NCBI GenBank assembly: GCA_030448025.1
Contig: JAUJNQ010000002.1
Coordinates: 57,564 to 91,451 of the forward strand
Length of the DNA: 33,888 nucleotides
DNA from: Acidimicrobiales bacterium
GTDB taxonomy: Bacteria; Actinomycetota; Acidimicrobiia; Acidimicrobiales; GCA-2861595
Direction of reading: 5' to 3'
Each line of letters begins with the position of its first letter. Position 1 is the stretch's first letter. The position numbers were made by a program, and so were the translations under genes. This document shows positions 2,923-9,358 of the stretch, piece by piece. Under the pieces are notes generated by a model. It saw nothing but the letters and a program-made list of their open reading frames with translations. It was not told where the DNA came from and searched no databases.

Positions 2923-3402
2923 CTAAACCCGCGCAACGTCGCCGGGGTCTTGGCCTTGGGCCAAGCGCCGGGTCACGTCGTCCCGGAGCCGGCGGCTGGC
3001 CTTCAGGCCCACCGCTTGGAAATGGAGCTCGGTCCCGCCGTCCTCGGTCACCGCCTCCACCGTCCACGGTCGCCGGAACAGGACACGAGCGACGACACCA
3101 CCCACCAGCAAGGCGATCACCACCACCACGTCGAGCAGGACGAGAAGCAACGGCACCACCACGAACACGACGAAGGCGGCAAGGAGCAGGGTGAGCGCCA
3201 CAGCGAGCACCACAGCGAGCACGACCCGCGGCAGGCCGTCCCCGATGTCGAGGGGAACGAAGTCGACGACGGGGTCCCACCATGCGCCGTCGTCAGAGTC
3301 GCGACGCCGGCGCAGGCGCGCCCGCAACCCGCGTCCCTTCAGCCGGGGCGCCCACTGGCGGTGGACGACCCAGCGGCGGCCGTCGGGACCCTGGACCTTC
3401 AC
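2923..3402 (-). CDS. Small membrane protein downstream of glnD
   Basis: The 159-residue product starts at GTG 3402, whose GTGA overlaps the glnD stop, so it is translationally coupled to glnD. Residues 1-50 are basic and soluble (RRWVVHRQWAPRLKGRGLRA). Two closely spaced hydrophobic segments follow (about 59-80, PRVVLAVVLAVALTLLLAAF, and about 83-110), then a cytoplasmic tail with WTVEAVTEDGGTELHFQAVG. I do not recognise a named family; the layout resembles uncharacterised actinobacterial membrane proteins. The position suggests co-transcription with the nitrogen operon, but nothing in the sequence links it to nitrogen control. Confidence 0.7.
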   Translation of the reverse strand: MKVQGPDGRRWVVHRQWAPRLKGRGLRARLRRRRDSDDGAWWDPVVDFVPLDIGDGLPRVVLAVVLAVALTLLLAAFVVFVVVPLLLVLLDVVVVIALLVGGVVARVLFRRPWTVEAVTEDGGTELHFQAVGLKASRRLRDDVTRRLAQGQDPGDVARV

Positions 3403-5699
3403 CCCTCTCTATGCTCGAGCTGGCGCAGGACGGCTCTCTCGATCTGGCCAAGCTGCTCGCCGGCGGTGACCTTGTTCCCCTCGGCGTCGGTGACGTAGAA
3501 CGCGTCCACCACCTCGTGGCCGAGGGTGGACACCTTGGCCGTACGCACGTCGAGACTGCACTCGGCCAGGGCCCGAGTGATGCGGTACAAGACGCCGACA
3601 CCGTCGGGAGCCCGGACCTCGATGACCGTGGCCGTCTCCGAGGCCTCGTTGTCGAACAGAACCCGCGCCTCGGCCGGGTGGGCCGAGGCCGCCCGCTTGG
3701 CGCCCGAGTAGGCGCGTACGCGCTCCGCCAGCTTCGCTTCGAGCCAGAGCTGACCGTCCAGGGCCCTCTCGACGTCGTCGCGCAAACGGTCCGGGTGGGG
3801 CGGGGTGGCGAAGACCGGCTCGACCTCGAAGACCTCCACCGCCATGCCGTCCTGGCCGGCTGCCGCCGCCGAGCGCACGGCCAGTCCGTGGACGGCCAGC
3901 GTGCCCGCCACCCGGAAGAACAGGCCGGGGCGGTCGGGCGCCACCACTGTGAGCCCACCCTCGTGGACCTCCACGAAAACCTCCCCCCGGGCCATCAGGA
4001 CAGCGTGCTCGGGCGTGGGCAGCGTGAGCGTGTCCGGTTGGCGATGGCCACCGAGGTGGCGGGCGGTGCGGTCCACCAGGTCCCGGACCAGCCTGGCCTT
4101 CCAGTGCCCCCAGGCCGCAGGGCCCGTGGCCAGGCTGTCGGCCTCGGTGAGGGCGGCCAGGAGCTCGAGCGTCTGCTGGTCCCCCACGCTGGAGGCCACG
4201 GCTTCCACGGTGGCCGGGTCGTCGAGGTCGCGACGAGTGGCCACGTCGGGCAGGAGCAGGTGGTGACGCACCAGGTCGACCAAGATCTCCACGTCCTCCG
4301 GGCTGAAACCCATCCGTGGTGCGATGCGGCCGACCACCTCGATGCCGGCCTCGGTGTGGTCCCCGGGGAAACCCTTGCCGATGTCGTGAAGCCATGCACC
4401 GACGAGGAGGAGGTCGGGCCGGGAGACCTCTCGGGTGAGGGTGGCCGCGTTGGCGGCTGCCTCACAGAGGTGCCGGTCGACGGTGAAGCGGTGATAGGCG
4501 TTGCGCTGAGGACGACTGCTCACCGTCTCCCACTCGGGTAGGAGCCGCACCAGCAGGCCGCTCTGGTCCAGGGACTCGAGCACCGGGATGGCGCCCCGCC
4601 CGGTGCCGAGGAGGGCCACCAGGGCGTTGCGGGCAGCACGCGGCCAGGGGTCACCGGGGCCGATGGCATCGGCGCCCAACCGTTCCAGCGTGCCCCTCGC
4701 CAGCGGAGCCCCGTTCTCGGCCGCCGCCGCCGCGGCCCGGATCACGAGCGAGGCGTCGTTGCCGGGGTCTGCGTCGGCGCCGAGCACCACCTCGCCCTCC
4801 CGAAGGATCAATCCCGAGCCCACCGGGCGATCGATGCCCGAAGTCCGCCCCCTGGGCCCCGCCAGCGCCGACCTGACGCGGCGCCAACCGTCGTCGCCCC
4901 ACCAGGCGACCGTGCGTCCCGCGCCGGCCACCGCAGCCACGAGGGCATCGGCGCTCGGGTAGCCGAGCTCGCCGGCCACCCCGTCCTGCTCCTGGAGAAG
5001 CAGCCGGTCCAGGGTCTTTCCCGTACGGCGATGCAGCTCGACGCGGACCGAGAGCAGGACCTCGTTTGGCTCGGCCAGGACGTCCACGCCGCCATCGGCC
5101 CCGGGAAGACCGACCACGGGGCTGGCCAGCGCCGCCGCCTGCAGGGCATGCACGTCTCGCAGGCCTCCACGACCCTCCTTGAGCTCGGGCTCCAAGAGGA
5201 AGGCCACCTCGCCGAAGGCCTGGTGGCGGGCTTCCACCTCCTCGCACAGGGCCGCCAGCCATCGGGCCGAGCGCTTCCGCCATCGCTCCCGGACCCGGGC
5301 CACGAGCCCGGCAGCCAAGGTCGGGTCTCCGGCCACGAAGCGGCCGTCGAGCAGGCCGAGGGCCGCCTTCAGGTCGTCACCGGCCACGGCCACGGCTTCC
5401 TTCACCGTTCGCACGCTGTGGTCCAGGCCGATCCCCGCGTCCCAGATGGGGTACCAGAGGCGCTCGGCCACCGTCTTGACGTCCTTGACGCCCTGGTGGA
5501 CCAGGACCACGTCGAGGTCGCTGCCGGGGCACAGCTCCCGGCGGCCGTAGCCGCCGACGGCGACGACGGCGACCTTCTCCTGCGGGCCCAGCAGCTTCGA
5601 GAGCCACCCGTCGGCGAGGTCGGAGTAGGCCGCGCACAGGGCCGACCCCTTCAGCCCGGACCCGGCGAGCAGCCGGGCGCGCTCCTCCTTGAAGCGCAG
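3399..5699 (-). CDS. glnD: PII nucleotidyltransferase GlnD (bifunctional PII-modifying/removing enzyme)
   Basis: GlnD modifies and demodifies the PII protein in response to glutamine; in studied actinobacteria it adenylylates GlnK. All expected domains are present. With CTG 5699 as residue 1: nucleotidyltransferase motif GGYGRRELCPGSDLDVV near 48-64, the GlnD-specific KEGRGGLRDVH near 174-184, HD phosphohydrolase motif AWLHDIGKG near 435-443, and two ACT domains near 582-650 (VVAPDRPGLFFRV) and 692-760 (VRAPDGVGVLYRI). The start is a problem. The frame is open back into glnK, but no ATG, GTG or TTG precedes the nucleotidyltransferase motif; the first GTG (5510) lies inside it. I placed the start at CTG 5699 as the least bad choice. 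The gene follows glnK and overlaps the membrane-protein gene. Confidence 0.9.
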   Translation of the reverse strand: MRFKEERARLLAGSGLKGSALCAAYSDLADGWLSKLLGPQEKVAVVAVGGYGRRELCPGSDLDVVLVHQGVKDVKTVAERLWYPIWDAGIGLDHSVRTVKEAVAVAGDDLKAALGLLDGRFVAGDPTLAAGLVARVRERWRKRSARWLAALCEEVEARHQAFGEVAFLLEPELKEGRGGLRDVHALQAAALASPVVGLPGADGGVDVLAEPNEVLLSVRVELHRRTGKTLDRLLLQEQDGVAGELGYPSADALVAAVAGAGRTVAWWGDDGWRRVRSALAGPRGRTSGIDRPVGSGLILREGEVVLGADADPGNDASLVIRAAAAAAENGAPLARGTLERLGADAIGPGDPWPRAARNALVALLGTGRGAIPVLESLDQSGLLVRLLPEWETVSSRPQRNAYHRFTVDRHLCEAAANAATLTREVSRPDLLLVGAWLHDIGKGFPGDHTEAGIEVVGRIAPRMGFSPEDVEILVDLVRHHLLLPDVATRRDLDDPATVEAVASSVGDQQTLELLAALTEADSLATGPAAWGHWKARLVRDLVDRTARHLGGHRQPDTLTLPTPEHAVLMARGEVFVEVHEGGLTVVAPDRPGLFFRVAGTLAVHGLAVRSAAAAGQDGMAVEVFEVEPVFATPPHPDRLRDDVERALDGQLWLEAKLAERVRAYSGAKRAASAHPAEARVLFDNEASETATVIEVRAPDGVGVLYRITRALAECSLDVRTAKVSTLGHEVVDAFYVTDAEGNKVTAGEQLGQIERAVLRQLEHREG

Positions 5700-5730
5700 C
5701 CCGTCAGCGTGAAGCCCAGGGACCGGTCCT

Positions 5731-7358
<1,628 letters not shown>

Positions 7359-7381
7359 CCCCGGCAGCCTGACGACGGCTT

Positions 7382-7419
7382 GTTTCGGCGCCGTCACCCG
7401 ATTGTTTCACCCGTGTGAA
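7382..7419 (-). promoter_or_regulatory. Putative GlnR-type nitrogen box upstream of amt
   Basis: On the minus strand four half-sites follow at strict 11-base steps: TTCAC-N6-GAAAC-N6-GTGAC-N6-GAAAC. The published actinobacterial GlnR consensus is gTnAC-n6-GAAAC repeated twice; here only the first base of the first half-site differs. The box ends 23 bases before the amt start. It therefore probably activates amt-glnK-glnD under nitrogen limitation, with a short or absent leader. No glnR gene is in the window. Confidence 0.75.
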
Positions 7420-7436: not shown

Positions 7437-7733
7437 TCAGGCCAGGAGCTCGCCGATGCGGGCGAAGAACTTCGAGCGCGGCAGCACCTCGTCGCAGCCC
7501 GCGGCCCGCGCCGCGGCCAGCAGCTCGTGGTCGACGTGGCTGCCGAAGCCGATGGTGCGAACACCGACCTGGCTCAGGACCTCCATAACCCCTGGTCGAG
7601 AGAGGTCCACCACCACCAGGTCGGCGGTCGCGGCCGCCAGCTCGCCGGGGGTGCTCACGAAGGTCACCTCCCCTGCCGCAGCCAGCTTGGAACGGTCCAT
7701 CAGGTCGGGAACGTAGGCGATGACTCGGGTCAC
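7437..7733 (-). CDS. Small response-regulator-receiver-like protein, 98 aa
   Basis: Residues 1-98 read as alternating beta strands and helices (MTRVIAYVPDLMDRSKL, LVVVDLSRPG, VRTIGFGSHVDHELLAAARA, DEVLPRSKFFARIGELL), the pattern of a CheY-like fold. VVVDLSRPG occupies the place of the phospho-acceptor strand, although the early acidic pair is missing, so this may be a non-phosphorylated pseudo-receiver. Its start (GTG 7733) overlaps the stop of the preceding gene by GTGA, so the two are coupled. Partners of this kind recur together in actinobacteria as far as I recall. The biochemical role is unknown. Confidence 0.65.
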   Translation of the reverse strand: MTRVIAYVPDLMDRSKLAAAGEVTFVSTPGELAAATADLVVVDLSRPGVMEVLSQVGVRTIGFGSHVDHELLAAARAAGCDEVLPRSKFFARIGELLA

Positions 7734-8260
7734 TGCGACGCTCCGTTCCGGGGCGCTGCATTCCGGGGCGCTGCATTCCGGGACACTGCATTCCGGGACA
7801 CTGCATTCCGGGGGTCACCATGGCGCTGCTTGTGGAGCCACGCCTTGGCTGCTCCCCATGCCAGACCGGCGTCGAACAGAGCCGGGTCGATGTCAGCGAA
7901 CGACGTCGGCGTGAGGTCGTAGTCGTCGTCCGGGAACCGCTCCTCGGCGAAGCGGTCCCTCCGAACCGGGGGGACGCCGGCATGGCGCAGGACCTCGGTG
8001 GGGTAGCGCACGGCTTGGCGGAGGATGCTCAACGGGTTGGTGTTCTGATCGTCGATGTCGGCTTCCAGCAGGCCCCGCACACGGATCCCCACGTCGGCCT
8101 TGGCCCGCTCCCCCGCGTCACGGGCGGCGGCCATGACGGCGGGGTCGGCGGAGCCGCAGTAGGCCACCAGCAAGTGCTCCACCGACCGCTCCACCCAGCG
8201 AGGCAGGGCGGCGTCCACGCCGTCGGCCAAGGCCCGGGCCTGCTCCTCCAGTACGACCAT
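7730..8260 (-). CDS. Conserved actinobacterial protein of unknown function with repeat tail
   Basis: The product (176 aa from ATG 8260; GTG 8290 is an in-frame alternative with AGGAGG directly abutting it) is soluble and mostly helical. Conserved-looking stretches are RVRGLLEADIDDQNTNPLSI, QAVRYPTEVLRHAGVPPV, FPDDDYDLTPTSFADIDP and AWGAAKAW. I have seen this type in actinobacterial genomes as a conserved hypothetical next to a small receiver-like protein, as here. The C-terminus is unusual: tandem RNAVS/RNAAP pentapeptides produced by a 15-base DNA repeat (7746-7820), probably a late extension that is not part of the fold. Function unknown. Confidence 0.7.
   Translation of the reverse strand: MVVLEEQARALADGVDAALPRWVERSVEHLLVAYCGSADPAVMAAARDAGERAKADVGIRVRGLLEADIDDQNTNPLSILRQAVRYPTEVLRHAGVPPVRRDRFAEERFPDDDYDLTPTSFADIDPALFDAGLAWGAAKAWLHKQRHGDPRNAVSRNAVSRNAAPRNAAPRNGASQ
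7746..7820. repeat. 15-bp tandem repeat inside the 3' end of a CDS
   Basis: The units are TTCCGGGGCGCTGCA twice (7746-7775), TTCCGGGACACTGCA twice (7776-7805) and a diverged fifth copy to 7820. The repeat is a multiple of three, so it preserves frame and encodes the pentapeptides at the C-terminus of the 7730-8260 product. The pairing of variants suggests two rounds of slippage. Copy number may vary between strains. Confidence 0.9.
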
Positions 8261-8296
8261 CGCTACCCATGTTCGCGCCCCGCACGTCACCCTCCT

Positions 8297-8346
8297 CGAA
8301 CTGGCGACGATTTCCGTCGGATCTGGCGGAAATCGTCGCCAGTTCG
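8297..8346. repeat. Perfect 20-bp palindrome with 10-nt loop, copy 1 of a family
   Basis: Arms 8297-8316 and 8327-8346 are exact reverse complements (CGAACTGGCGACGATTTCCG) around a 10-base loop. It lies between the 7730-8260 gene and the stop of the AbiEi/DUF559 pseudogene. There is no T-tract on either side, so it is not a classic terminator, although the RNA hairpin would be very stable. A relative sits at 9314-9358, on the other side of the pseudogene. Confidence 0.85.
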
Positions 8347-8348
8347 AC

Positions 8349-9313: not shown

Positions 9314-9358
9314 CTGGCGACGATTTCCGCCGCCACATCCGGCGGAAACCGTCGCCAG
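9314..9358. repeat. Palindrome with 19-bp arms, copy 2 of the family
   Basis: Arms 9314-9332 and 9340-9358 pair with one mismatch, which becomes a G-U pair in a minus-strand transcript. The outer sequence CTGGCGACGATTTCCG is identical to that of the copy at 8297-8346, while the loop differs. It lies between the start of the AbiEi/DUF559 pseudogene and the end of the DUF2993 gene. Confidence 0.85.

Follow-up and report, generated by a model that had tools for sequence, protein, structure and literature searches.

A GlnR-type box of 38 bp precedes the ammonium transporter gene in the window (the whole 33,888-nucleotide stretch of Acidimicrobiales DNA that was analysed), and very probably serves as a GlnR-bound activator site from which the amt-glnK-glnD operon would be transcribed with a leader of one nucleotide or none. 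The box occupies the 78-nt gap separating a 98-aa upstream open reading frame (ORF) from amt-glnK-glnD and, as GlnR boxes usually do, stands on the coding strand before a nitrogen-assimilation operon. From the sequence, we infer binding by GlnR, activation rather than repression, the exact start site and co-transcription of the operon. The original prediction, which combined the box, the choice of start codon and a probably leaderless mRNA, largely holds in the light of these sequence comparisons.

The features concerned, in window coordinates, are:

3399..5723, minus strand: glnD, P-II uridylyltransferase, open frame; NF002895 906.9 bits (cut-off 631); first listed start GTG 5510
5731..6069, minus strand: glnK, P-II signal protein; PF00543; 4-nt overlap with the amt stop
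6066..7358, minus strand: amt, ammonium transporter, 430 aa, ATG start; TIGR00836 449.7 bits (cut-off 343.3), PF00909
7358..7359, minus strand: predicted transcription start, either G 7359 or the A of the ATG (7358), from the hexamer position
7366..7371, minus strand: predicted -10 hexamer CAGGCT, beginning 10 nt past the box and followed by 7 nt to the ATG
7382..7419, minus strand: predicted GlnR box, all four half-sites present, conserved in genomes G001 and G002; half-sites a1 TTCAC (7419-7415), b1 GAAAC (7408-7404), a2 GTGAC (7397-7393) and b2 GAAAC (7386-7382)
7437..7733, minus strand: upstream ORF, 98 aa, without family match, stopping 78 nt short of the amt ATG

A single near-perfect box and the amt start codon

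Read on the minus strand from 7419 to 7382, the four half-sites are separated by the linkers ACGGGT, AATCGG and GGCGCC, letter for letter as first reported. The box matches 17 of the 18 informative positions of the GlnR consensus gTnAc-6-GaAAc-6-GtnAC-6-GAAAc, taken from the consulted portion of a review (PMC10704036), and has the top score among 81 loci. Scanning the window with KTNAC-6-GAAAC-6-GTNAC-6-GAAAC at up to three mismatches returned the amt box as the only match, while 100 dinucleotide shuffles of the window returned none. At the same tolerance, the pattern TTCAC-N6-GAAAC-N6-GTGAC-N6-GAAAC has a single match in the entire genome (2,702,819 bases; reversed control, zero), which confirms the near-perfect four-half-site box and its uniqueness within three mismatches. 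Looser patterns over the assembly yielded only two extra sites with fitting spacing, and contig C13 (4 kb) carries both. Compared with its congener, the window genome shows no change in the 20 half-site bases or the six hexamer bases, and 12 of 35 linker bases differ (hand count).

The mechanically called ORF of amt opens at GTG 7397, a codon formed by the first three bases of the third half-site, so the overlap between box and annotatable GTG noted originally is real. We place the start instead at ATG 7358, 23 bases past the box, because Amt similarity begins there (relatives start at the same residue) and because this ATG lies downstream of any plausible transcription start; GTG 7397 is rejected because it falls inside the box. 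This choice agrees with the start first proposed. The best named relatives of the transporter are from Acidimicrobiia (65%) and Acidimicrobiaceae (64%); the more similar of these (L014, 65% identical) shows no box in the 1500 bases examined, which counts against the proposed GlnR control. Immediately before the 98-aa ORF, a 15-base unit is repeated in tandem in about 4.5 copies (7737-7813). Farther along, two related long hairpins (CTGGCGACGATTTCCG...; 8296-8347 and 9314-9358) flank one ORF and resemble a repeated palindromic element.

A fixed distance between box and -10 hexamer

We scored 119 amt loci (80 named, plus 30 and 9 more) on the four half-sites alone within 300 bases, and 32 of them reached at least 17 of 20, a score that at least one of 50 shuffles likewise reached in 8 of the 119 loci. 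Among these 32 box-bearing promoters, 28 carry the hexamer NANNNT (A at position 2, T at position 6) at an offset of exactly 10 nt, whereas at any other offset from 0 to 30 it appears in at most 3. The window hexamer, CAGGCT, fits this arrangement but begins with C rather than T, which counts against the proposed reading. In congener G001, CAGGCT is likewise followed by 7 nt, and G002 has CATGCT and 8 nt, then GTG. Since the hexamer ends only 7 nt from the ATG, the amt transcript is predicted to be leaderless or to have a 1-nt leader; the very short or leaderless transcript anticipated earlier is thus supported by the constant spacing, its 5′ end being deduced from the hexamer. A rule of this kind (last half-site, 10 nt, -10 hexamer) is sharp and testable, and would predict start sites from sequence alone.

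Among the 28, leaderless spacing is restricted to the family of the window genome, where it occurs in that genome, in the congener and in a single further genus; three amt promoters of the family show it (L095, L096, L098). The remaining hexamer-bearing amt promoters have at least 15 nt between hexamer and listed start candidates, and several of these longer-spaced promoters show a purine-rich, Shine-Dalgarno-like run. One named Acidimicrobiaceae genome (L015) scores just under the cut at 16.8 and has TAGGTT and 10 nt, then ATG. The leaderless or 1-nt-leader amt mRNA therefore apparently represents a change within the family of the window genome. Client genes without leaders could be used to study why some mRNAs made under nitrogen starvation lack a ribosome-binding site.

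The strongest competing explanation is that the main promoter of amt lies farther upstream and also serves the 98-aa ORF, giving the mRNA a normal leader, so that the box would act as a roadblock or mark a minor start. That ORF is on the same strand as amt, and its stop lies only 78 nt before the ATG. Against this, many families of the order keep the box and the hexamer a constant distance apart in front of amt, and by eye the 78-nt gap lacks a Shine-Dalgarno-like run at the spacing from the ATG where one would normally be expected; we regard this explanation as unlikely and favour transcription from the box-associated hexamer.

A GlnR homologue beside two glnA genes

Absence of a GlnR homologue had been named beforehand as the main finding that would speak against the prediction; a search of the genome recovered a homologue beside two glnA genes, so that objection falls away. 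The GlnR-like protein, one of seven OmpR-type winged-helix matches in the genome, is encoded at C7:181934-182611, on the same contig as the window and about 91 kb from its edge, where a glutamine synthetase gene immediately precedes its gene and a second glnA is transcribed divergently. Its first PDB matches are 8hih, 8hig and 8hml. The former two we take to be GlnR entries, in line with the review PMC10704036; the PDB match list describes them only as regulatory proteins. The DNA-binding domain (PF00486, 98.8 bits) is 61% identical to 8hml over 90 aa, compared with 35-48% for the five other full-length OmpR-type proteins and 34% for a small winged-helix protein encoded on contig C13. As in GlnR of Mycobacterium, Amycolatopsis and Streptomyces, the recognition helix RTVDVHVRRLRAKLG is present, identical to that of the solved protein.

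Unlike those proteins, this one has a receiver domain without Asp-50, and the GlnR N-terminal domain PF21695 reaches 23.0 bits against a cut-off of 27. At the Asp-50 position (column from the PDB alignment), Asp occurs in none of 30 GlnR loci (L125-L154) and Cys in 17, including the window genome. D-50 of GlnR is described as a possible phosphorylation site in the available text of PMC10704036. Because Asp-50 is absent, we call the protein GlnR-like and probably orthologous to GlnR. With the homologue in place, and with half-sites and hexamer retained in the congener, the proposed GlnR-type nitrogen control of this lineage gains support at the level of sequence. It would mean that a system characterised in Streptomyces and mycobacteria also operates in a deep actinobacterial lineage whose members are mostly uncultured; a literature search, mostly outside subscription journals, found nothing on GlnR in Acidimicrobiales among the matches listed.

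Another OmpR-type protein, MtrA-like or of the small kind found on C13, might be the main reader of a genuine box, with GlnR secondary. The MtrA and GlnR DNA-binding domains are said in the consulted part of PMC6277429 to be nearly identical and likely to recognise similar motifs, MtrA is reported to bind GlnR boxes in Streptomyces, and the window genome itself encodes five other full-length OmpR-type proteins. None of these five passes the MtrA model NF040689, however (best 253.0 bits, cut-off 300), the GlnR homologue has the DNA-binding domain most like that of solved GlnR, and the amt box is present in genomes without a full match to the small protein, such as G009 and G027. We therefore consider a different principal reader improbable, and GlnR the better candidate.

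Clear GlnR matches were found in 53 of 59 related genomes, and 28 of 30 GlnR loci have a same-strand glnA upstream. Co-occurrence of box and GlnR was considered as a test and set aside as not discriminating; among these relatives the presence of the box follows that of GlnR only imperfectly, which counts against the proposed reading. The six without a clear match comprise three with no amt box (G019, G037, G055), one that has the box (G041, 63% complete), one not among the box-bearing amt loci (G040) and one with a distant amt only (G054). In 17 of the 30 GlnR loci, a box scoring at least 16.5 faces the divergent glnA. This box, upstream of glnA-glnR (L131-L154), is of an a-a-b-b type (TTCAC TTCAC GCAAC GAAAC) and is degenerate in the window genome, where two half-sites are left (TTCAC-6-TTCAC); the expectation of a further box before glnA was thus not borne out there, as none comparable to the amt box was present.

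Proposed mechanism and comparison with known systems

When nitrogen is short, two GlnR dimers would bind the 38-bp box, with four DNA-binding domains placed one per half-site, following the four-site GlnR complex summarised in the consulted part of PMC10704036. A start at 7359 would put the last two half-sites at about -38 to -23, in the place of a -35 element, and GlnR bound there would thereby hold RNA polymerase on the weak hexamer CAGGCT. The polymerase would begin at G 7359 or A 7358, and the resulting mRNA, leaderless or with a 1-nt leader, would need no Shine-Dalgarno sequence; glnK and glnD would share the amt transcript.

For Streptomyces coelicolor it is established that GlnR activates amtB by way of such boxes, according to the available text of PMC5826061, which also describes the same operon order (amtB-glnK-glnD) and a and b half-sites with 6-nt linkers. 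The S. coelicolor promoter differs in having three boxes with an atypical a2, whereas the window has one uninterrupted a-b-a-b run in which all four half-sites are good. Among Streptomyces amt promoters scoring 14-15, GAAAC is followed after 10 nt by CAATCT or CAACCT in seven and by GAATCT in three, but the box-to-start distance in Streptomyces amt loci is 75-125 nt, compared with 23 in the window. Leaderless GlnR-dependent transcripts have been reported in Mycobacterium smegmatis, where, in the portion of PMC6277429 consulted, GlnR/NnaR transcripts resemble the window in having a GlnR motif upstream of the transcription start and features of leaderless mRNA. Those cases differ in that they are part of the nitrate/nitrite regulon of NnaR and carry an NnaR motif as well, whereas the window has amt and a GlnR box alone.

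Repression of amt from the box is very improbable: GlnR is able to repress, and for M. tuberculosis the consulted part of PMC4950008 could not tie GlnR site, start site and direction of control together by an obvious rule, nor tell activation from repression by an obvious pattern, but the window box stops 10 nt before the hexamer, in the place of a -35 element and with the start uncovered, and GlnR activates amtB with such boxes in S. coelicolor (PMC5826061, as far as consulted).

A family of small winged-helix regulators

The amt box is a known type of site with a lineage-specific twist, and the more novel lead is a family of small regulators to which the two additional sites led. Contig C13 (4073 bases) has two GlnR-type pattern matches, one before a 167-aa winged-helix protein and one before a second P-II gene.

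C13, 3908-3405, minus strand: mini-regulator (L172, G000:C13), 167 aa; PF00486 only

This protein is 78% identical to its counterpart in a genome of another family (L224, G601), compared with 53% for the match in congener G001, and the assembly's listed contamination is 3.21%. On sequence grounds, C13 may be a contaminant or a transfer. Because of these identities and the listed contamination, we left the C13 sites out of the regulon of the window genome, and the mini-regulator result therefore concerns the order rather than the window genome.

Relatives of the C13 protein scoring at least 116 bits are present in 23 of the 59 genomes; out of 396 genomes of the phylum, 11 contain one with an E value no higher than 1e-25, and 4 of these 11 do not belong to the order. 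We collected 26 mini-regulator loci, 25 with enough upstream sequence (G016 was too short), and in 22 of the 25 the promoter has three half-sites with a NANNNT hexamer 10 nt beyond them, and each of these 22 hexamers is followed 6-9 nt later by an in-frame ATG or GTG. This spacing supports the transcription start predicted for amt. Upon inspection of the three misses, G032 and G051 were real, and G004 had been scored one repeat out of register and has the same layout by eye. A blind search of 397 genomes of the order with the DNA pattern returned 23 matches (reversed control, zero), and in 22 of the 23 the start codon begins a gene of the mini-regulator family, the other (L230) leading into an unrelated 32-codon frame. 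Many of these loci, though not all, have an amt or P-II gene on the same strand no more than 1.5 kb away.

We think it somewhat probable that Acidimicrobiales possess a GlnR-controlled and seemingly undescribed module in which a leaderless mini-regulator acts as a secondary nitrogen regulator below GlnR, and that the amt layout of the window arose in a small clade. In such a module, the promoter would consist of the box, 10 nt and TANNNT, with the start codon 6-9 nt past the hexamer giving a leaderless mRNA. The product would be an orphan winged-helix protein of about 165 aa whose front part is a reduced, receiver-like segment; its gene often neighbours amt or P-II genes. The amt gene of the window would have come to the same leaderless layout within a single small clade, its promoter being of a kind that in other genomes leaves space for a leader. 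The linked mini-regulators offer specific candidates for a second layer of nitrogen control.

Loci of the orphan family of about 165 aa, with GlnR-box and apparently leaderless promoters, are L172, L175-L199 and L204-L238. Scanning the named loci L014-L093 with a relaxed motif gave no match, L068 being missed because the rule for the second half-site was too narrow for it; by eye, L068 (Acidimicrobiaceae fen_730) has a similar promoter before a 114-aa winged-helix-like ORF that adjoins amt.
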